From assembly GCA_026416715.1 (NCBI GenBank), contig JAOAEQ010000003.1, forward strand, positions 69,040 through 133,039: a stretch of 64,000 bases of DNA. Reading direction: 5' to 3'. The notes beneath the pieces are model-generated. The model made no database searches and was not told the DNA's origin. It was given only the letters and a program-made list of their open reading frames with translations. How positions within the stretch are numbered: position 1 is the first letter of the stretch; each line of letters starts with the position of its first letter. This document shows positions 27,551 to 38,583 of this stretch, in pieces. This stretch comes from a bacterium. Its GTDB lineage: Bacteria; UBP4; UBA4092; JAOAEQ01. Made by a program: the position numbers and the translations under genes.

Positions 27551-28186
27551 TTATTTCTCTAGTTTTGGTCGGTCGATGATTACCTCGCAATGAGCGCGTC
27601 GAAGGAGAACATCCGTAGTTTTGCCCAGAACCATTTGCGCCGGGTTAACCCGAGGACGAACGCCCATAACAATCATGTCTACATCATATTCCTTAGCGGA
27701 GCGGATGATTTCTTCCGCTGCAACTCGGGCACGTTCGATTTTCCGAATCGCGGGTAATCCACGTAATTGAACAATCGCTTCAGCTCGGTCAAGCGCTTGT
27801 TTTGCTTTTTCTTCTTCTTTTGGCAACTTTGCTCCTAGCGGTAAAGTTCGTGGGACTTCAACGATATACGTTAACACAATTTCAGCGTTCTGTTCAGCGC
27901 CGAGCCGACACGCGAGTTCTACTCCTCGGTCAGAATATGAAGTTCCCTGTGTAGGGACCAGAATTCGTTTAATTGCATCAACCGACCGTATTGCTTTAGC
28001 GACATCACGAGATACCATTGGCGGCGGATGCAGCATCCACCACATTATCCCGCTCAACGATGCGGTAAAGAGCAGAGCGAGCAGCAATCCTATCCAGGAA
28101 AACGATATTTCCCCGGTAGACTGCGGGACAATCAATAATGATGAAACAAAATTAGTTGTGGTTTCGCTAGCAGTCGTTAATTGCAT
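27551..28186 (-). CDS. Membrane-anchored universal stress protein
   Basis: 211 residues. One strong membrane helix near residues 30-50 (WIGLLLALLFTASLSGIMWWML) is followed by a USP domain beginning IKRILVPTQGTSYSDRGVELACRLG and ending MVLGKTTDVLLRRAHCEVIIDRP, where the GxxxxxLLRxAxCxV pattern is the usual ATP-binding end. Most USPs are soluble, so the anchor is unusual. Its place between the APC permease and the RCK genes suggests it is a cytoplasmic regulatory subunit of that transporter. Confidence 0.85.
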   Translation of the reverse strand: MQLTTASETTTNFVSSLLIVPQSTGEISFSWIGLLLALLFTASLSGIMWWMLHPPPMVSRDVAKAIRSVDAIKRILVPTQGTSYSDRGVELACRLGAEQNAEIVLTYIVEVPRTLPLGAKLPKEEEKAKQALDRAEAIVQLRGLPAIRKIERARVAAEEIIRSAKEYDVDMIVMGVRPRVNPAQMVLGKTTDVLLRRAHCEVIIDRPKLEK

Positions 28187-28203
28187 ACATTTGATTTTAA
28201 AAT

Positions 28204-28440
28204 TTATCTTTTTGATTCGGATGTGATTTTTAGATTATTTATTGCCCGATAAAACAGCCACATCCGGTATACCCCAGCTAGAAAAAACAATATTCCGATT
28301 AGAACACCGTACCAGGTTGGGACTTTCAACGATCGATAAATTAAAATCGGACCAAGTATCGTTAAGATAATTCCGAATGCAATTCGGAAATAATCTAGCG
28401 TTGGAATACTAATTTTCTTAGGTGACATTTTCTGATTCAA
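28204..28440 (-). CDS. Small two-helix membrane protein
   Basis: 78 residues with two membrane segments (YFRIAFGIILTILGPILIY and WYGVLIGILFFLAGVYRMWLF) and charged termini. It overlaps the end of the APC permease gene by 23 bp in another frame, so translation is probably coupled. No family recognised; likely an accessory subunit of the transporter. Confidence 0.7.
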   Translation of the reverse strand: MNQKMSPKKISIPTLDYFRIAFGIILTILGPILIYRSLKVPTWYGVLIGILFFLAGVYRMWLFYRAINNLKITSESKR

Positions 28441-30010
28441 TTAATGGCGCTCTTTTTCGGTCGCGTTCCGCGAGTGCATTTTTATATTGTTCTAGCAAAT
28501 CGAATTCCTCTGCGGATTCGAGCACCTGTTTCTGTTGTTCTTCCCAATTACGTTTAATGCTACCAAAAATTGGAAATCCTCGTCTTTTCCGATACCAAGC
28601 ATAATAGATGAAACAGCCGAATACCCATAGTGGACCAGCAATGCGTCCGATTTCATGTGTTAGGACTACCATAACCAGAACTAAAAATACACCAAATAAA
28701 CCTATCACTCCAAGAATCGGGAATTCGACCACCTGATGTTTTAATTTCAATTTCAGATTTAATGGGACTTTATAGGGTCTTGGTGTATAAGGGTCAGAAA
28801 ACCTAAGTTTTATTAGTGCAATAAAAACTAAAGTATAACCTAATGATGCACCAAATGCATACATATTTCCTAATGTATCCAATGCATTTTTACTTAAGAA
28901 CGATAATAATAATTCGATAATTCCGATACTAGAAAAAACCACAATTGTTCGAACCGGAGTTTTATATTTTGGGTGAACTTTATCAAACCATTCACTTATG
29001 CATTCCATTTTACTCATAGAATACGTTAGCCGAGAAGCCCCGACAATTCCACTGTTTGTGGAAATGAATAAAAAACATGCGCCAAGAATTGCAGTTAACG
29101 GTCCGGCAACTAATCCGATAAATGAGATATTACTCGCTAATTTTGCGACTGGATCACCGTAAGAAACTTCTGTCCATGGAAGAATACCTAAACTTAGAGT
29201 TGAAAATGCGGTTGCGAAAATAAAAACATTAAAAATAAGACTTAACGAAGTCCGAGGGATAATTGTTGCTGGACGACGGGTTTCCTGTGCTGCCTGCGAT
29301 ATTGATTCTAATCCTACATAGGAAATAATCGCTAAGCTTGAACCGTACATAAAATTATTCCAGCTTGGGAATTGAGTTTGCCAATGCCAGATTAGCATTT
29401 CCGGTTTCCACGTGAAAATGAATCCTACAACAATGATGATTCCTTCTACAACAATTCCGAAAACACCAAGAATTTCATTCAATAACGATGATTCGCGAAT
29501 CCCTTTAATATTTAGCCAGATTAATATTACAATTAAGAGAAGAGCTTCTAAACACCATATTGGATTCAAATTGGTAAATTGACCGAAAGAAATATTTAGG
29601 TCGCGGATGGCTGGGAAAAAGAAGTTGATGTAACCTGCGGTTCCGGTAGCGAATAGGGCAATATCAATAGTATAGTCTAATAGCAAAGCACTTCCTGCCA
29701 CAAATCCCCAGAAATCACCGAGACCACGTAAGGTAAAATACTGTCCACCTCCAGCAACGGGATATGCAGACGCAAGTTCAGTATAAGCTAAACCGATAAG
29801 GATATAGACAAGTCCGGCTACGGCAAATGCGATATTAGTTGCGCCTTGTGCAGCTGCCATAACGATACCGAGTGCAACATAAATATCTGCGCCGACATCA
29901 GCATACCCCCACATGAACGAACCCCACACGCTTACATTCCGCCGGAGTTCGGGTTGAGGAAATTGATGATTAGAACTGGTAGCAGGCGTATCGCTAGATT
30001 CACCAACCAT
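28418..30010 (-). CDS. APC-superfamily permease
   Basis: 530 residues, about 12 membrane helices, C-terminal cytoplasmic tail of about 60 residues that is highly charged. The first helix reads SFMWGYADVGADIYVALGIV in place of the GIGSGIF motif of classical amino acid permeases; the later SYVGLESISQAAQETRRP and FGASLGYTLVFIALIKLR are APC-like. Substrate could be an amino acid, or potassium as in KimA/KUP-type APC proteins, which would fit the linked RCK and USP genes. The second possibility is inference. Confidence 0.85.
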   Translation of the reverse strand: MVGESSDTPATSSNHQFPQPELRRNVSVWGSFMWGYADVGADIYVALGIVMAAAQGATNIAFAVAGLVYILIGLAYTELASAYPVAGGGQYFTLRGLGDFWGFVAGSALLLDYTIDIALFATGTAGYINFFFPAIRDLNISFGQFTNLNPIWCLEALLLIVILIWLNIKGIRESSLLNEILGVFGIVVEGIIIVVGFIFTWKPEMLIWHWQTQFPSWNNFMYGSSLAIISYVGLESISQAAQETRRPATIIPRTSLSLIFNVFIFATAFSTLSLGILPWTEVSYGDPVAKLASNISFIGLVAGPLTAILGACFLFISTNSGIVGASRLTYSMSKMECISEWFDKVHPKYKTPVRTIVVFSSIGIIELLLSFLSKNALDTLGNMYAFGASLGYTLVFIALIKLRFSDPYTPRPYKVPLNLKLKLKHQVVEFPILGVIGLFGVFLVLVMVVLTHEIGRIAGPLWVFGCFIYYAWYRKRRGFPIFGSIKRNWEEQQKQVLESAEEFDLLEQYKNALAERDRKRAPLIESENVT

Positions 30011-30040
30011 ATTGAGTTTAACCGGTAATTTGAAACTTTT

Positions 30041-30397
30041 CTAAAATCCTTTTTTTACGAAAACGAGAATCGTTGCACAAACCAACCACACTAATAGGGA
30101 TAGTAAAATACTCGGAAGTATTTTAAACCGATAGCTGCACCAATATAAGGTTGACGCAAATGCTATCCAGACCGGAATCGCCCAGAAACTCCAGATAATC
30201 GTTTCCCGCATTCGGTCGCCATTGCCGTTGCTTCCTAAAAAAAAGAATGTCGGAAGGCTAATGATTGGAAAAAATAGGAGCAATCCAGCAAGATAACTCA
30301 ATTTCGTCTGGGAAAGCCATAGAATCAAACCAATAAATGCGCCGCCAATGACCGCTTTGATTAAAATTTGAGTCATAAACAATATTGTAACATACAT
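30041..30397 (-). CDS. GlpM/DUF3147-like small membrane protein
   Basis: 118 residues with four hydrophobic segments. The first half (KAVIGGAFIGLILWLSQTKLSYLAGLLLFFPIISLP) and the central RETIIWSFWAIPVW resemble GlpM/DUF3147 proteins, whose role is unknown. An ATG at 30376 is an alternative start; neither has a ribosome site. It is the first gene of the minus-strand unit, 30 bp before the APC permease. Confidence 0.6.
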   Translation of the reverse strand: MYVTILFMTQILIKAVIGGAFIGLILWLSQTKLSYLAGLLLFFPIISLPTFFFLGSNGNGDRMRETIIWSFWAIPVWIAFASTLYWCSYRFKILPSILLSLLVWLVCATILVFVKKGF

Positions 30398-30923: not shown

Positions 30924-31005
30924 ATCCGTAGTTACTCTATCACGGCATAGGTATCCGTCAGAAGTTAAGTTATACTTAAATATTTCAAAAAATATTAAAT
31001 AATAC

Positions 31006-31034
31006 TTGACAAACATCTTTTTGTGGTGTATACT
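31006..31034 (+). promoter_or_regulatory. Sigma-70 promoter of XRE-cupin regulator
   Basis: Perfect TTGACA (31006-31011), 17-bp spacer, TATACT (31029-31034); start of transcription near 31041. This is the best promoter in the window, and the short leader carries AAAGG before the ATG at 31058. AAATATT occurs twice just upstream (30978-30984 and 30990-30996) and might bind the regulator itself. Confidence 0.8.
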
Positions 31035-31057
31035 ATTTGGTGAAAGGTAGAAATACA

Positions 31058-31609
31058 ATGAAACTAGTTGGAGTTAATATAAAGCGATATCGGGAAGAGC
31101 GGCAAATCACTTTACGCGATTTAGCGAGCAAATTGAACGTCAGCGCAAGTTTCTTATCACAGGTTGAAACCGGAAAAGCATCGCCGTCATTATCAACCTT
31201 AAAGAACATTGCCGATGCGTTACACACCACGGTAGGGAGTTTAATCGGTGAAACAGAACCTACGGCGACCCAACCAGTCGTTCGTGAGAAGGAACGCAAA
31301 TCGCTCAAACAGTTAGGGAAAGGGATTAAATTATATTTATTAACTTCACCGGATCCGAATAAACAGATGGAACCGTTATTGTTTAAACTGGATAAAGAGG
31401 CTAATTCCGGAGAAGCGTCATATCGCCATTTTGGTCAAGAGTTTGTTTTGGTTTTGAAAGGAACATTGGAAATCACACTCAATGAGAGCAAGTATATTTT
31501 GAAAAAAGGAGATAGTATTTATTTTAATTCCAGTATTCCGCATCTGTTTCGAAATGTCTCTAAAGGGACTACTGAAGCACTATGGGTGGTAACCCCACCA
31601 ACTTTTTAA
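31058..31609 (+). CDS. XRE-family regulator with C-terminal cupin domain
   Basis: 183 residues. Helix-turn-helix of the XRE type in the first 60 residues (LRDLASKLNVSASFLSQVETGKASPSLSTL), then a cupin ligand domain (FGQEFVLVLKGTLEITLN, KKGDSIYFNSSIPHLFRN). This PuuR/ClgR-like architecture usually senses a small metabolite and represses neighbouring genes. The upstream ATG-like codon at 31037 lies before the transcription start predicted above, so I use 31058. The following three genes are its likely targets. Confidence 0.9.
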   Translation: MKLVGVNIKRYREERQITLRDLASKLNVSASFLSQVETGKASPSLSTLKNIADALHTTVGSLIGETEPTATQPVVREKERKSLKQLGKGIKLYLLTSPDPNKQMEPLLFKLDKEANSGEASYRHFGQEFVLVLKGTLEITLNESKYILKKGDSIYFNSSIPHLFRNVSKGTTEALWVVTPPTF

Positions 31610-31643
31610 GTGCAGTAAACTGCTCTATTTTTTTATACGCTAT

Positions 31644-31686
31644 GTTAATTATTACTTAATATAGTTAATTTATATAAAACTAACTA
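31644..31686. promoter_or_regulatory. Possible operator upstream of the M20-like gene
   Basis: GTTAATT occurs at 31644-31650 and again at 31664-31670, exactly 20 bp (two helical turns) apart, and TAGTTA (31662-31667) is mirrored by TAACTA (31681-31686). The cluster ends just before the GGGAGG ribosome site and would suit a dimeric regulator such as the XRE-cupin protein encoded upstream. Confidence 0.35.
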
Positions 31687-31705
31687 GTAATGGGAGGTAA
31701 CAGGT

Positions 31706-32944
31706 ATGTATAACATTCTAAAAACCAAACTAACCGGATTACAAAATCCCATGCAGGATTTTTCCGGTCGATTATCTGAGTTTAATCTTGATGAAAGGAA
31801 CATGACTGAATTTATTACTTTGATCTCGCAAGAGATGAAAAAGTTAGACTTTGATGAAGTGGTTCAAGACCATGCCGGCAATATTATCGGTATCATTAAT
31901 GGTTATGACGCTCAGGAAGATTTAATTCTGATATCCCATATGGATTTTTCTGTGTTCTCTGGATTACAATCGTTCAGGTCATACCAACCAGAACTGGATA
32001 TGCTGACTTTTAAAGCCGGAATAATTTCATCGATATACGCCGGGGGATTAATGAAGCGGGTGTTAATGCCATTGAAGGGGAATCTAATCGTTTGCTGTGT
32101 TCCCCGAAGTGAAAGTTGCGGAATAGGTATCAAATATCTATTCGATAATTTCTTACGGGAACGACGCAAACATATTCAGGGAGTCATTCTTTGTGAGCCA
32201 ACTGACTTTAATATCAATCTTGGTCATAAAGGAAAAATGGAGTATGAGATTGTGGTGAAAGGGAAAATTGGGAAAGATGAATTTTTCGAACAACGGGGAA
32301 TAAATATGCTCGGGACTATGTTTCCGTTAATCAACGAATTAGAGAAATATTCACAAACGTTACCTCGCGATTTTACATTAGGTCCATCGAGTTTACGGAT
32401 TAAAGATGTTAGCTATAGCGGTTACGGTAGTCCGTATCAGCCATTGGAAGATTTACGAGAATGTCGGGTGGTCGTTGATCGCACCTATGTTCCGGAAGAA
32501 AGAGAGGAAACGATTTTAAATAAAGCCAAATCGATTGCGAAAAGTGTTTATCGAGAAAAACCGGAAGTAATAGTTGACACTGCGGTGGCAACGCGCAGAG
32601 TTAAAACCCTAGCTGGAACAGAAGTTATTGCTGAAAAAGAATATAAACCATGGAGAATGGAAGAACATCATCCATTTGTTCTCTCTTCGTTAGGAGTACT
32701 GAGAGAAAACGGATTTAATGCTACACTTGGATACTGGAAAAAAATTATTACCGAAGGTTCATATACTTGTGGTGAATTACAGATACCAACTATTGGTTTT
32801 GGCGCTGGTTCGGAAGAGATGCTAACTGTCGGCAAACCTATGATATCGATCGATGATTTAGCTAAATCAGTATATGGACAAACCCTGATAATTCACCGGA
32901 ATCTTGGTATGCCAACGTTTGGGTGGTGCGAAGATGAAATCTAA
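31706..32944 (+). CDS. M20-family hydrolase-like protein with missing metal ligands
   Basis: 412 residues, alignable from memory with YgeY-type M20 amidohydrolases. Retained: His78 in LISHMD and the Glu of CEPTDFNINLGHKGKMEYEI. Altered: the bridging Asp (usually in SDQEGG, here TFKAGI), the EE pair (here RSES), the CHGS dimer-interface His (here GKDE) and the final His (usually EAHAP, here MLTVG). It should therefore be inactive or bind metal differently. Ribosome site GGGAGG, and it overlaps the next gene by 11 bp. Possible binding protein rather than enzyme. Confidence 0.75.
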   Translation: MYNILKTKLTGLQNPMQDFSGRLSEFNLDERNMTEFITLISQEMKKLDFDEVVQDHAGNIIGIINGYDAQEDLILISHMDFSVFSGLQSFRSYQPELDMLTFKAGIISSIYAGGLMKRVLMPLKGNLIVCCVPRSESCGIGIKYLFDNFLRERRKHIQGVILCEPTDFNINLGHKGKMEYEIVVKGKIGKDEFFEQRGINMLGTMFPLINELEKYSQTLPRDFTLGPSSLRIKDVSYSGYGSPYQPLEDLRECRVVVDRTYVPEEREETILNKAKSIAKSVYREKPEVIVDTAVATRRVKTLAGTEVIAEKEYKPWRMEEHHPFVLSSLGVLRENGFNATLGYWKKIITEGSYTCGELQIPTIGFGAGSEEMLTVGKPMISIDDLAKSVYGQTLIIHRNLGMPTFGWCEDEI

Positions 32945-34166
32945 TGCTACTCCAATTAACATTCTAGTACTGAACTGCGGAAGTTCATCGCTAAAATATA
33001 AAATTATTCGGATGCCGGAAGAACAGGAATTGGTTTCAGGTGAAGCGGAACGGGTTGGAATAAAAACACAAGATACCCCGATGATAACCCATTATGTTTT
33101 CGGCCAAAAACGGGTGGTTAAAACTGAAATTCCGAATCATACCGTAGCGTTCCGAAAAGCGTTATCACTGATTAAAGAAGACCATAAAACCCATAAATCG
33201 GTTACGTTCGATATCTTTGCCCATCGATATGTTCATCCGGGAACGTGGTTTTCAAAAACAACAAAAATCACTAATGCCAGACTCGAACGGTTGCGAGAAA
33301 CATTGCAATTAGCGCCGTTACATAATCCGATATCATTTGCGTTGGTCGAACTTTGCACACAAGAGTATCCGGAAATTCCGCAATATGTGGTGTTCGATAC
33401 CGCGTTTCATTCAACGATTCCAAAGGAATTGTATAGCTATGCGTTACCCATGAAACTGGTAAAAAAATATGGGCTAAGAAAAATAGGGTTCCATGGTATC
33501 TCACATCAGTATGTAAGTAGGGAAGCTTGCCGATATCTAAATCGAGATTATAGAACTCAACGGATTATTAGTTGTCATTTAGGTACGGGTGGTTCCAGTG
33601 TATGCGCGATAGATTGTGGGAAATCAATCAACAATTCGATGGGATTTACTCCGTTAGAAGGATTAATGATGAACACCCGTTCCGGGGATTTAGATTTAGG
33701 GTTGCTCTTTTATATTATGTTTAAAGAAAATATCTCGCCTGAAGATACCGAGACAATTTTAAATAAAAAAAGTGGAGTCCTTGGCATATTTAAGAATTCA
33801 TCGGATTTACGCGATGTGATTAAAAGTATTAATAACGATTATAAAGCCAAAATGGCGTTTAATATGTACGTCCGCCGGGTAAAAAAATATATATGTTACT
33901 ATATACTCTTATTAAGAAAAGCAGATATTATTTTGTTTACTGATTCAATCGGAGTTGGAGTCCCGTTGATTCGAGAAGAGATTTGCCAAGGATTGGATTT
34001 CTTTGGAATCAAGTTGGATAAATTCAAAAATGCAAATTATACTAATGGAATACAAGATATTTCAACCTTAGATTCAGAAACCCGAATTCTGGTACTACCG
34101 ACCGATGAAGAAATTATGATTGCGCGAGAGGCATATAAGGAGTTTAACCATGATAATCGTTATTGA
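32934..34166 (+). CDS. Acetate kinase-like protein (first of pair)
   Basis: 410 residues from the ATG at 32934, which overlaps the previous stop. Acetate kinase (ASKHA fold) signatures are clear: LVLNCGSSSLKYKI, HRYVHPG, LAPLHNP, VFDTAFHSTIPKELY, GFHGISH, CHLGTGGSS, TPLEGLMMNTRSGDLD and PTDEEIMIARE. The adenosine-binding FTGGIGENS is instead FTDSIGVGV, and HGG is HPG. So the phosphate and acetate residues are kept but nucleotide binding may differ. It may still use acyl phosphate. Its ORF overlaps the next gene by 17 bp. Confidence 0.85.
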   Translation: MKSNATPINILVLNCGSSSLKYKIIRMPEEQELVSGEAERVGIKTQDTPMITHYVFGQKRVVKTEIPNHTVAFRKALSLIKEDHKTHKSVTFDIFAHRYVHPGTWFSKTTKITNARLERLRETLQLAPLHNPISFALVELCTQEYPEIPQYVVFDTAFHSTIPKELYSYALPMKLVKKYGLRKIGFHGISHQYVSREACRYLNRDYRTQRIISCHLGTGGSSVCAIDCGKSINNSMGFTPLEGLMMNTRSGDLDLGLLFYIMFKENISPEDTETILNKKSGVLGIFKNSSDLRDVIKSINNDYKAKMAFNMYVRRVKKYICYYILLLRKADIILFTDSIGVGVPLIREEICQGLDFFGIKLDKFKNANYTNGIQDISTLDSETRILVLPTDEEIMIAREAYKEFNHDNRY

Positions 34167-35229
34167 ACCGACATTACGTGAAATTACATTTTGGGGTTTT
34201 ACGAAAGGTAAAACTGGTAAGACCGAAAATACTTGTTTACTTAAAAAAACAGATGAGGTTCGTGATATTATCGGTTTAAAAACAGTAATAGATACTATAT
34301 TAAACCAGGAGAAACTAGAAGCGATTGCATTCCATATTTATTTCGGTGCTGACCTATTCGATCAGGCAGTTTTTGTCGACCGAACTTTTTTCGATAAATT
34401 CCGATCGTTGGTTAAATTTTTCCCTTTTTATATTCCGTTCATTGAAGATTTACTCCGGTCGGTATATGAGAAATATACTACTGTTCCGATACTAGCATTT
34501 TTCGAGACAGCATTTTTTACTGATTTGCCAGAAGAAGAGAAATATTATGCGATTCCCTATGAGTATTTCCAGAACACTAATATCAAACGTTGGGGATACC
34601 ACGGCATCTATCATAAGTTCAATGCTCAGATATCAAAATCAGACAACCGAATTATTTCAATCGTTTTTGATAAGCAGACTACCGTTTGTCCTATATACCA
34701 AAATCGACCATTAGCGATTAGTCTGGGATATACACCTTTGGAAGGGATAATGAGCCGAACCAGTTGCGGTGATATAGATCCAGGGATAGTGTTCTACCTT
34801 ATGAAACAATATAACTATTCGATATTCCAAATCGATGAAATCCTAAAAAGAGATAGCGGGTTCTATGGACTTACGGGCTACGATTTGAGTATGGAAGAGT
34901 ATTTCAAATTATATGGGAAAGATGAAAAACTTAAACTCGCGTTTGATATCTACGAAAACCAAATCTTAAAATATATCGGAGAAGGAATTTCGGTTCTCGG
35001 TGGAGTAGATATATTGGTTTTTTCTGGTGGTTTGATCAGATATGCACAATCACTCATATTGCATCTGCTCGAAAAGATAAGATTTTTAGGGATTAATCTC
35101 AAAGAATTACCGTGGAAGAATAAAACCAACATAATGTCTATCACTTCTCCAGATTCGAAAATTGGAGTATATCTCAATTTAGAGAATCTTGCACAAATTA
35201 TCTATGATGAAGCAGTAAAATTACTTTAG
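34150..35229 (+). CDS. Divergent acetate kinase-like protein (second of pair)
   Basis: 359 residues from the ATG at 34150, preceded by AAGGAG (34137-34142) inside the upstream gene. The fold is recognisable by FFETAFFTDLPEEE, GYHGIYHKF, SLGYTPLEGIMSRTSCGDIDPG and VFSGGLIRYA. The N-terminal phosphate loop NCGSSS is absent (it begins IIVIEPTLREI), the catalytic Asp-His of FDTAFH has become ETAFF, TRSGD is TSCGD, and the final TDEE helix is missing. It cannot be an ordinary acetate kinase. Its mate keeps most of what it lacks, so a heterodimer is plausible but unproven. Confidence 0.8.
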   Translation: MIIVIEPTLREITFWGFTKGKTGKTENTCLLKKTDEVRDIIGLKTVIDTILNQEKLEAIAFHIYFGADLFDQAVFVDRTFFDKFRSLVKFFPFYIPFIEDLLRSVYEKYTTVPILAFFETAFFTDLPEEEKYYAIPYEYFQNTNIKRWGYHGIYHKFNAQISKSDNRIISIVFDKQTTVCPIYQNRPLAISLGYTPLEGIMSRTSCGDIDPGIVFYLMKQYNYSIFQIDEILKRDSGFYGLTGYDLSMEEYFKLYGKDEKLKLAFDIYENQILKYIGEGISVLGGVDILVFSGGLIRYAQSLILHLLEKIRFLGINLKELPWKNKTNIMSITSPDSKIGVYLNLENLAQIIYDEAVKLL

Positions 35230-35466: not shown

Positions 35467-35943
35467 ATGCCGAAGGTTTTGATTATTTACTATTCCCGCA
35501 GTGGAAATACTGAAAAGTTGGCGAAGTATATCGAAGATGGCATTAAATCTGAAGGAGTTGAGGTTATCTGTAAGAAAGTTCAGGATGTTAGTGTTAAAGA
35601 ATTATTGGATTATGAGGGAATTGTAATCGGTTCACCGGTATACTATGGAACGATGGCAGCGGAAATTAAGAAACTCCTCGATGATAGTGTTCAGTTCCAT
35701 GGAAAACTGGATGGGAAAGTCGGTGCCGCATTTTCTACTTCAGCGAATATCGCTGGCGGAAATGAAACAACGATACTTGATATTCTTGCGGCAATGCTGA
35801 TTCACGGAATGATAATTCAAGGCGACCCGAAAGGAGACCATTACGGCTCTGTTGCTATCGGTAAACCCGATGACCGCGCGAAAGATAACGCTATTCGCCA
35901 AGGGAAACGAATCGCGAAATTGGTTAAAAGAATCAGCGGATAA
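35467..35943 (+). CDS. Flavodoxin/WrbA-like FMN protein
   Basis: 158 residues. FMN phosphate loop YYSRSGNTEKLAKYI at the N-terminus, VIGSPVYYGTMAAEIKKLLDD at the second FMN loop, and a third loop FSTSANIAGGNETT, together resembling the WrbA/NAD(P)H-quinone oxidoreductase branch. It probably carries electrons or reduces quinones. The ribosome site AAAGGAGG (35453-35460) is 6 nt from the ATG. It stands alone, convergent with the sigma-factor operon. Confidence 0.88.
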   Translation: MPKVLIIYYSRSGNTEKLAKYIEDGIKSEGVEVICKKVQDVSVKELLDYEGIVIGSPVYYGTMAAEIKKLLDDSVQFHGKLDGKVGAAFSTSANIAGGNETTILDILAAMLIHGMIIQGDPKGDHYGSVAIGKPDDRAKDNAIRQGKRIAKLVKRISG

Positions 35944-36009: not shown

Positions 36010-36606
36010 TTATTTTTTAAGCTTCTTTCCGCAGTATGGACAATAGCACCAATCAGGGTCAGTAATCTTTTTCGCGCAGGATTTGCATTTTGTTACCATA
36101 CTCGCTCCGCAATACGGGCAGAATTCCGGTTTCGCATACGCGCGAAATTGCTTGGTGCACATCGGACAAGTTTGCAGTATCGGCGTGGATATTTTTTCTT
36201 CTATTACTTTTTTCGCTTCACTAATCGCTGAAGGAACTATCTCACGCATCATTTCAGAAATATCGCTATCGCGCCAACCTTTTATCGAAATGAGATAAAC
36301 ATTCGCTTCTTTCTTCTGAATCGTTAACCCGGCAGCATCACAGACGGTCTGCAACGCAAGGTCTGCCGGAACATTTTTGAACGTTGCTGTTATCATTACA
36401 TTCGGTACTTCCGGTGAAATAACCACGCTAAAATTTCCGGATTTCGCAATTTGCGTAATTGCCGTAGTGATAGGAATATTAGTTAATTCTAGCGAAATTT
36501 TCATTAGCTCCTTGCTTAATTTCTCCGCCGGTTGTTCAGCATAACTAATAGAGATAATGGAAAAAAAGAGAATTCCAATTACTAAGATAATTGGTTTTTT
36601 ATCCAT
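36010..36606 (-). CDS. Exported STN-domain protein with two zinc ribbons
   Basis: 198 residues. A signal peptide (PIILVIGILFFSIISISYA) is followed by a secretin/TonB short N-terminal domain (STN: PITTAITQIAKSGNFSVVI, VPADLALQTVCDAAGL) at about residues 40-105. The last 60 residues hold two tandem four-cysteine zinc ribbons (CPMC, CPYC, CKSC, CPYC). Zinc ribbons outside the cytoplasm are rare. It is the third gene of an operon with an ECF sigma factor and its anti-sigma, with a 42-bp gap. Function unknown; an envelope sensor is possible. Confidence 0.75.
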   Translation of the reverse strand: MDKKPIILVIGILFFSIISISYAEQPAEKLSKELMKISLELTNIPITTAITQIAKSGNFSVVISPEVPNVMITATFKNVPADLALQTVCDAAGLTIQKKEANVYLISIKGWRDSDISEMMREIVPSAISEAKKVIEEKISTPILQTCPMCTKQFRAYAKPEFCPYCGASMVTKCKSCAKKITDPDWCYCPYCGKKLKK

Positions 36607-36648
36607 ATATTCTATACCTCCTGTAGTCTTTGGGTTCTCTGTGCTGTA

Positions 36649-37782
36649 TTATTTTTCATTAAATTCCATTTTTATCTGCAAATGCCGTGGTGATGAACTT
36701 TCGGCTTGTGGTATTTCCCGAATTTCAATGAACCGCTGAATCTGAAGGTCAGGCGAATGAGTTTGAATGGATAGTTCCATGGCTTCTTGTATCATTCTGG
36801 CTCTGATAGAGTCGAATGCAAGATGAGGTTGGGCAACAGGTGGTAATGCCGACGGAACTATTTGAATTACCGTTCGGTAGTCATAAGAAGCCACCTGTTC
36901 CATTCGTTGTGGAGTAAAAGATACTGAAGTCCCCCGTGCAAGTCCGATACTTTGAGAGAGAGTATCTCCAGTAGTTGCCGCTTGACTAATACCGAATTCT
37001 CCTCCTTTTACCTCAGGAGTAGATACAGACTTAGTTTTACCAATTGGATACGCTTCTTTAGCATATTTCGCTTCTCCTGCTATCTCCTTCGGCGAGAATG
37101 GAGCTATAGCTGTTGGCGTAGCGGCAAGTTCCCTGCTTGTTATGTTCCCGCCGACACTTTTCATCTTTGTTAATGTTTGATTCTTTTCAGCTTCTTCAGA
37201 AGAAATATCACCATGGGTAACTTTCGGCTCTCCGAACGCAGTAATATCTTGTTCTTGCATCGTTGGAGTTCCGTGCGTAGCAGGTTGTTCTGCTGGTTTC
37301 GGTTGCAGCCGATTTGCTTGAACACTTCTTTCTGGCTTATCCGCAGTAGGTTGCCTAGCTAGAACCATCGGTGGGTTAATTTCTTCTTTTGGTAATATCG
37401 TAGTCACAGGTTGATTGATTATGTTGATACATAGAATAATCGCAACAATTGATATCGTTGCCGATGCTATTGCAAGTTTTCCCCAGACCGGTTTCTGCCA
37501 GCGTAAACGAACCGCTGGTTCCGGTTTCTTTCCAGATTTTACTGCAGCAAGTTTCTGTTCAATTGCTTTCAATTGGTTCTGCCAATATAATGGTGGCCGT
37601 TCTTCTAGTTTTGGAAAACGTTCAATAATTCCATTCAGTTTCTTATACGATTCAAGTTCAGCGGAACAGACCGGACATCGGGCTAAATGCAATGTTAACC
37701 TATCCGATTTCCGACCGGATAATTCGTTATCCAGATATGCTACAATTAATTTTTGAACCTTTTTACATCGCATAATTTTCAT
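36649..37782 (-). CDS. Anti-sigma factor with zf-HC2 domain and long exported part
   Basis: 377 residues. Residues 1-50 form a zf-HC2 domain with HLARCPVC (Hx3CxxC), the zinc-binding fold that holds ECF sigma factors. One membrane helix lies near residue 105-125 (LAIASATISIVAIILCINII). The remaining 250 residues are extracytoplasmic, low-complexity and rich in Pro, Thr, Glu and Lys, ending in a more ordered segment. It lies 51 bp downstream of the sigma factor gene, the standard arrangement for a membrane anti-sigma. Confidence 0.85.
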   Translation of the reverse strand: MKIMRCKKVQKLIVAYLDNELSGRKSDRLTLHLARCPVCSAELESYKKLNGIIERFPKLEERPPLYWQNQLKAIEQKLAAVKSGKKPEPAVRLRWQKPVWGKLAIASATISIVAIILCINIINQPVTTILPKEEINPPMVLARQPTADKPERSVQANRLQPKPAEQPATHGTPTMQEQDITAFGEPKVTHGDISSEEAEKNQTLTKMKSVGGNITSRELAATPTAIAPFSPKEIAGEAKYAKEAYPIGKTKSVSTPEVKGGEFGISQAATTGDTLSQSIGLARGTSVSFTPQRMEQVASYDYRTVIQIVPSALPPVAQPHLAFDSIRARMIQEAMELSIQTHSPDLQIQRFIEIREIPQAESSSPRHLQIKMEFNEK

Positions 37783-37833
37783 GAGTGTTACATTATCAAT
37801 TTTATCAGACTAATTACTCCAATTTAACATTTT

Positions 37834-38583
37834 TCATAAATATTTTTTTAGTTTCTTACGCAGTTCTCGTTTCGCATGATATAACCGAGACATCACCGTA
37901 CCTATCGGGCATTGCATTATTTCCGCAATTTCTTTATATGATAATTCCTGTTGTTCGTGGAGAATAAATGCTATTCGATGTTCTACAGATAATGAATTCA
38001 ATGCGGTCTGGATGAGAGCATTCAACTCTTGATTAACCAGTTCTTGTTTCGGGTTCATACTGTCGTCAGGTATAACATCAGCTAACTTCGATGGTTTCTC
38101 TGACTCCTCCGAGATATAAACCGGTGCATCGAGTGATTCTTCTCGACGTCGGTTCTGTTTTCGTATCTGGTTTCGGCATAAGTTCACGGTTATTCGGTAT
38201 AACCAACCTGCAAACGTAGCGTTCGGTTGCGATTTGAATCGCTTGATGTGCCGAAATACCGCAACGAATGTTTCTTGGGTAATATCATCCGCTTCCGCAT
38301 GGTTGCCTAAAACCCGATAGCAGAGTGAATATACCCATTTCTGATATTTAACCACCAATTCCTGAAACGCAATAGCATCCCCTTGTTGTAACCGGAGAAC
38401 TAACGCTAAATCTGCATCAAGGTTAATATCTTCCAATACACGCGCAGAAGATGCGCCGGTTGATATCGATACAGCGCAGGTATCTGACATATCTTCGTCT
38501 GAGCCAATCGGTTGATTTACCTCTTTATTTTCAGGGTTGTCTTTGCCAATCATACTAACAACCGAACTCAATACTTTATTCAA
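37834..38583 (-). CDS. ECF RNA polymerase sigma factor
   Basis: 249 residues. An unusual 55-residue N-terminal extension precedes region 2 (FQELVVKYQKWVYSLCYRVLGNHAEADDITQETFVAVFRHI) and region 4 (LSVEHRIAFILHEQQELSYKEIAEIMQCPIGTVMSRLYHAKRELRKKL). It directs polymerase to a specific regulon, with activity controlled by the anti-sigma encoded next. Such units normally regulate themselves, but I could not identify the promoter by eye. Confidence 0.93.
   Translation of the reverse strand: MNKVLSSVVSMIGKDNPENKEVNQPIGSDEDMSDTCAVSISTGASSARVLEDINLDADLALVLRLQQGDAIAFQELVVKYQKWVYSLCYRVLGNHAEADDITQETFVAVFRHIKRFKSQPNATFAGWLYRITVNLCRNQIRKQNRRREESLDAPVYISEESEKPSKLADVIPDDSMNPKQELVNQELNALIQTALNSLSVEHRIAFILHEQQELSYKEIAEIMQCPIGTVMSRLYHAKRELRKKLKKYL

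Follow-up and report, generated by a model that had tools for sequence, protein, structure and literature searches.

The window (the whole 64,000-nucleotide stretch of bacterial DNA that was analyzed) contains a four-gene cassette encoding an XRE-cupin regulator, an M20-fold protein, and two acetate kinase family proteins (genes A to D), in which the first kinase (C) carries the signature of the pyrophosphate (PPi)-dependent acetate kinase from Entamoeba (EhACK). This finding was real and more specific than the preliminary description of the locus, and both the signature of C and the linkage of the genes were well supported. The best explanation, in which we place moderate confidence, is that the cassette encodes a short-chain acyl kinase that depends on Pi/PPi, is self-contained and under local control, and consists of an active and a dead subunit together with an M20-derived accessory protein. 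A literature search (open-licence papers) turned up neither the B-C-D trio nor any acetate kinase paired with a dead partner, in line with the initial claim that no described system pairs these proteins.

All four genes are located on the plus strand. Gene A (31058..31609) was assigned by a domain search as an XRE-cupin regulator (HTH_3 and Cupin_2, both over the Pfam cut-off), as originally proposed; its start was ATG at 31058, the same start as in all relatives, while TTG at 31037 is at or 5' of the expected transcription start. Gene B (31706..32944) encodes the M20-fold protein, with a broken metal site and the C-terminal tail FGWxxDEI; its domain matches were weak (M20/M20_dimer), and the top NCBIfam match, YgeY, was under the cut-off (143.5 and 113.8 bits vs 321). 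Genes C (32934..34166; pyrophosphate-type signature) and D (34150..35229; a catalytically dead paralogue, as judged by its motifs) have one Acetate_kinase domain (Pfam) each. The B/C and C/D overlaps were 11 and 17 bp, respectively; these open reading frames, their order, and both overlaps had been noted in the preliminary description and were confirmed by the ORF positions and by recurrence in relatives.

When bacterial genomes were first scanned with B, three loci from Omnitrophota were found in which all four genes were arranged as in the window. A B profile run against 384 Omnitrophota genomes gave 12 strong matches (397-858 bits; next best, 30 bits), and one further locus brought the total to 13. 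The order A-B-C-D was retained in 13/13 as far as the contigs reach (10 complete and 3 cut by contig ends), D followed C in every locus where the contig continues, and most loci had a B/C overlap of 11 bp and a C/D overlap of 17 or 4 bp. The same gene order, which the preliminary description had suggested searching for, therefore recurred far beyond chance, and linkage was complete, with the genes not set apart in relatives; this bore out the view of the regulator, the M20 relative, and the two ASKHA acyl-kinase relatives as a single unit. Identities to the window proteins were 61-72% (A), 41-58% (B), 50-64% (C), and 45-52% (D), and the dN/dS values of a close pair (L049/L051) were 0.18, 0.12, and 0.13 for B, C, and D, respectively, indicating purifying selection on all three.

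Beyond Omnitrophota, a B search of 386 genomes from many families revealed B-C-D without A in another phylum (G614), in which the trio was present in 5/44 genomes (G614 and four more). A genome from a further phylum (G648) had C and D only, overlapping by 4 bp. Two genomes of the window's own phylum were examined, and the other one was without the cassette. In phylogenetic trees, the window proteins fell among the Omnitrophota sequences (the D tree placed L046 and L047 outside the window protein; 97/90), so the conserved cassette has likely moved between phyla and is probably mobile. A stray Omnitrophota contig in the genome bin was considered and is unlikely: the tetranucleotide similarity of the cassette flanks to other contigs of the same genome was 0.96-0.97, and the cassette itself (0.82) was no outlier among 4.2 kb pieces from elsewhere in the window (0.80-0.92), while the Omnitrophota loci gave 0.09-0.58.

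C retained PHOSPHATE1 (NCGSSSLKY), Arg91, His123, Asp148, His180, Arg241, and Glu384, and the acetyl-phosphate side was thus intact. On the other hand, PHOSPHATE2 was HLG[TS]GG[SAG]S, with one extra residue and loss of Asn211, and the ADENOSINE motif was FTD, with loss of Gly331 (HLGTGGSS at residues 215-222 and FTDSIG at residues 335-340 in the window protein). The PPi-dependent Entamoeba enzyme is distinguished in the literature by an extended PHOSPHATE2 loop and by Asp within the ADENOSINE motif (PMC5517563, PMC4390882). Both altered motifs were found in 18/18 complete members of the C family (several phyla, including G648) and in 0/32 other acetate kinases, drawn from the same and additional genomes; Asn211 and Gly331, conserved in ATP-dependent AckA, were both missing from C. 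The Gly331 position is occupied by Ser, not Gln, in C, and by Ser, Thr, or Asp across the family. C is, very probably, a catalytically active acetate kinase of the PPi-dependent type. The proposal of altered motifs in all three products therefore held for B and D, and for C on the nucleotide side only; the three proteins were not equally altered, because C is a signature-type kinase, D is dead by its motifs, and B is intact in one lineage. The acyl-phosphate chemistry initially proposed was judged likely.

Val93, Leu122, and Pro232 set acetate binding in the Methanosarcina enzyme (PMC4390882); the equivalents in C were kept or conservatively replaced, which makes a short-chain acid likely as the substrate, probably acetate or propionate. 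Pfam and NCBIfam assigned C to the general acetate/propionate kinase family, as would be expected if it were an ordinary ATP-dependent kinase whose motifs had drifted, with D as a duplicate in decay. However, the altered loops were fixed in 18 proteins from several phyla and matched EhACK, and D was both under purifying selection and present wherever the contig continues; we regard this alternative as highly improbable. When the DNA pattern CHLG[TS]GG was searched in 346 genomes, acetate kinase matches were obtained only in the window genome (G000) and G648, and G614 was missed because the pattern omits some Ser codons. Besides C and D of the cassette, the window genome had an ordinary AckA (on contig C11) and a further odd paralogue (G000:C40:5357-6523; L055 5324-6538, minus strand) with NVGSTSLKY, HLGGSSS, and an altered Arg91 region.

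To our knowledge, EhACK is the sole characterized PPi-using acetate kinase described, and its physiological role has stayed open. Among the matches listed, EhACK (4H0O) was the top-scoring PDB kinase on the PHOSPHATE2 loop and the sole ungapped one, and FTD was common to both proteins. With the whole C protein of G648, EhACK was the best PDB match (347.6 bits vs 325.5 for the next). In a tree constructed without the signature columns, EhACK was located inside the C family (100/100) as the sister of G648 (100/96), while an AU test of the alternative, EhACK with ordinary kinases, did not reject it (p 0.133); the placement is therefore strong but not final. C and EhACK share the extended PHOSPHATE2 loop (HLGTGGSS), the ADENOSINE Asp, loss of the invariant Gly331, and the acetyl-phosphate catalytic residues, but differ at the Gly331 position (Gln in EhACK vs Ser/Thr/Asp in the C family) and in gene context: no partner is reported for EhACK, whereas C precedes the dead D, and B precedes C in three phyla. 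The putative PPi-dependent kinases of Anaerolineaceae (Ornatilinea, Longilinea, Flexilinea, and Leptolinea) have the same extra Gly and Asp as C, and Asp at the Gln323 position, as in the G648 member; they were described as single kinases with gene neighbors unreported (PMC5517563). For bacterial proteins in which the Gly331 position holds another amino acid, the 2017 authors could not decide between PPi and some other substrate.

These relationships suggest that the C family hints at the origin of the Entamoeba enzyme: a bacterial family with the EhACK signature in a conserved operon is a likely source, and it provides proteins that may be tested. We advance more tentatively, as possible rather than probable, the wider proposal that the locus represents an undescribed three-subunit Pi/PPi acyl kinase (an active kinase joined by an M20-derived subunit and an obligatory dead kinase), spread between phyla as a cassette with its regulator and operators, whose C family was the bacterial source of the Entamoeba enzyme.

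D lacked PHOSPHATE1 (N-x-GSSSxK), PHOSPHATE2 (HLGxG), Arg241, and Glu384 in 17/17 trio members; Arg91 was also lost in the window protein and retained in most Omnitrophota proteins. The fold was that of acetate kinase (predicted model with pLDDT of 81.6; best match 2iir, TMq 0.77, E 1.1e-25). All D proteins formed one group in the tree (100/99), most simply explained if the dead partner arose once. In other folds, inactive paralogues called prozymes form complexes with their partners and activate them (PMC5201418, PMC3663545). D may be read as the partner of C by analogy with these systems: the pairs of trypanosomatid AdoMetDC and deoxyhypusine synthase likewise combine an active enzyme with a dead paralogue, but their folds are unrelated to that of C-D, for which a complex is deduced from the likeness. 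D would pair with C as a hetero-oligomer and control or stabilize it, with translational coupling producing roughly equimolar amounts. Ordinary acetate kinases are homodimers, and C may thus act without D, as EhACK does. The dead partner beside C is nevertheless a hint that PPi-type acetate kinase may work as a complex, and may normally be a hetero-oligomer.

The M20 fold of B was supported by a structure comparison (Z up to 26.8), while no PDB sequence was matched when B was used in phmmer and profile searches. In the window and Omnitrophota proteins (14/14), the metal site was incomplete: the bridging-Asp loop, the catalytic Glu pair, and the last His were lost, and mostly HxD and one Glu were kept. 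In contrast, the M20 metal site was complete (HxD, GA[AS]DCK, EE, EP, and AHxxxE) in 5/5 members from the G614 phylum. The tail FGWxxDEI or a close form was found in both forms of B and was absent from YgeY-type M20 proteins. Compared with M20 hydrolases of the YgeY family and the DapE/ArgE type, B has the same fold and overall length, and the G614-type protein has all the metal ligands. The trio proteins differ from YgeY in the extra tail, and the window-type protein also has neither the bridging Asp nor the Glu pair or last His. A YgeY-type enzyme in its usual context was rejected, since YgeY-like genes elsewhere mostly adjoin carbamoyltransferase- or dihydropyrimidinase-like genes, not acetate kinases.

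The intact site in the G614 phylum, where B matched DapE/ArgE-type deacylases, is consistent with a catabolic pathway in which an N-acyl compound is hydrolyzed by the M20 enzyme and the short-chain acid set free is activated by C-D with PPi, hydrolysis having been lost or moved to another enzyme in the window lineage. A divergent gene of one type adjoins each trio of the G614 phylum, and in the three run through Pfam (L105, L157, and L160) it encodes a sigma-54 activator with XylR_N and V4R, a catabolic type of regulator that also points in this direction. However, the window and Omnitrophota proteins are still linked to the operon without the bridging-Asp loop, Glu pair, and last His, and the direction reported for EhACK is the reverse one, with acetate and PPi as products (PMC9983610), making such a pathway quite unlikely. 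In the preferred reading, C would be the catalytic subunit with pyrophosphate/phosphate in place of ATP/ADP, most likely converting acyl phosphate and Pi to the acid and PPi, as EhACK does. B would be an M20-derived third component, most likely a binding or scaffolding subunit, because its metal site is broken here and complete in its relatives from another phylum. B is a clean case of a lost active site with a retained place in the operon.

The strong promoter initially noted upstream of A was verified as a sigma-70 type, TTGACA-17-TATACT (31006..31034, plus strand), matching 11/12 consensus positions, and TTGACA was kept upstream in relatives. A putative operator, GTTAA-N7-TTAAC, was newly found as four copies in fixed places in 13/13 loci, some of them imperfect: two ~30 bp apart upstream of A and two 20 bp apart in the A/B gap. 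In the window, copy 1 (GTTAAGTTATACTTAAA, 30964..30980) is 30 bp upstream of copy 2 (ATTAAATAATACTTGAC, 30994..31010), which overlaps the -35 element at a position kept in all loci; copy 3 (GTTAATTATTACTTAAT, 31644..31660) is followed after 20 bp by copy 4 (GTTAATTTATATAAAAC, 31664..31680), just 5' of the Shine-Dalgarno sequence of B, a spacing found in most loci. Across the upstream regions and A/B gaps, 53 sites had >=8/10 matches, in comparison with a shuffled mean of 3.5 and a maximum of 9 (of 200), while the coding sequence of A contained 2 in 7.2 kb. A window-wide search for an operator regulon gave 22 matches vs 14 expected. A weak terminator-like hairpin at the end of A (31585..31599, plus strand) is uncertain because such hairpins were fewer than the chance expectation.

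The four operator copies in 13/13 loci tie the XRE-cupin gene to the cassette, and their placement fits repression by its product, which would act on its own promoter and on B-C-D via the four copies and be released by a ligand of the cupin domain; that this domain senses an acyl metabolite is a guess. PuuR-like XRE-cupin repressors have the same order of HTH_3 and Cupin_2 as A, but A scored 67.3 bits, under the NCBIfam equivalog cut-off of 211, and has its own conserved operator. The co-encoded regulator and the operators conserved at the locus would also suit an acyl-phosphate sensing or regulatory module, in which acetyl phosphate is bound by C but not usefully turned over, with the three proteins of the trio signaling together to the XRE-cupin protein; catalytic sites are missing in two of the three proteins in the window lineage, and ordinary AckA is already present in the genomes. 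We consider such a module unlikely, because C retains the full acetyl-phosphate catalytic set, its close relative EhACK is an active enzyme, and the trio of the other phylum is accompanied by the unrelated sigma-54 activator, and is thus not bound to one regulator.

Concerning the metabolic setting of the preferred acyl kinase, a separate ordinary AckA was found in the window genome and 12/13 Omnitrophota carriers. Pta was present in 19/20 carrier genomes, and a membrane pyrophosphatase in 20/20 carriers vs 4/14 genomes of a small control set. A path from PPi to an ion gradient is possible because the carriers have the membrane pyrophosphatase and mostly Pta; on the basis of this gene content, we suggest that acetyl-CoA may be converted via acetyl phosphate to acetate and PPi, with PPi feeding an ion gradient. 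If true, the energy metabolism of uncultured anaerobes, e.g., Omnitrophota, would gain a pyrophosphate branch.

Several neighboring genes were also observed. In G648, a GTP cyclohydrolase FolE2-like gene is directly 3' of C-D (L171 8528-9319) and a GntR/LacI-type regulator is upstream. In G614, an indolepyruvate oxidoreductase-like, acyl-CoA-ligase-like, and ACT-domain cluster is located a few kb upstream of the trio (L161 5896-11687; L105), and was not seen at the other four trios of that phylum. A WrbA/flavodoxin-like gene with its own ribosome-binding site is directly 3' of the window cassette (35467-35943); it was rejected as a fifth member, since the counterpart at L007 belongs to a different Pfam family and L005 and L006 are without one. 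A defense system was also rejected, PADLOC giving a generic HTH match only. On the minus strand, an amino-acid permease, an adjoining universal-stress-like protein, and a small membrane protein are encoded 5' of the cassette (27551-30397), and an ECF-type sigma factor, a zinc-finger anti-sigma-like protein, and a small secretin-domain-like protein with zinc ribbons, as read from the sequence, are encoded in a row at 36010-38583.
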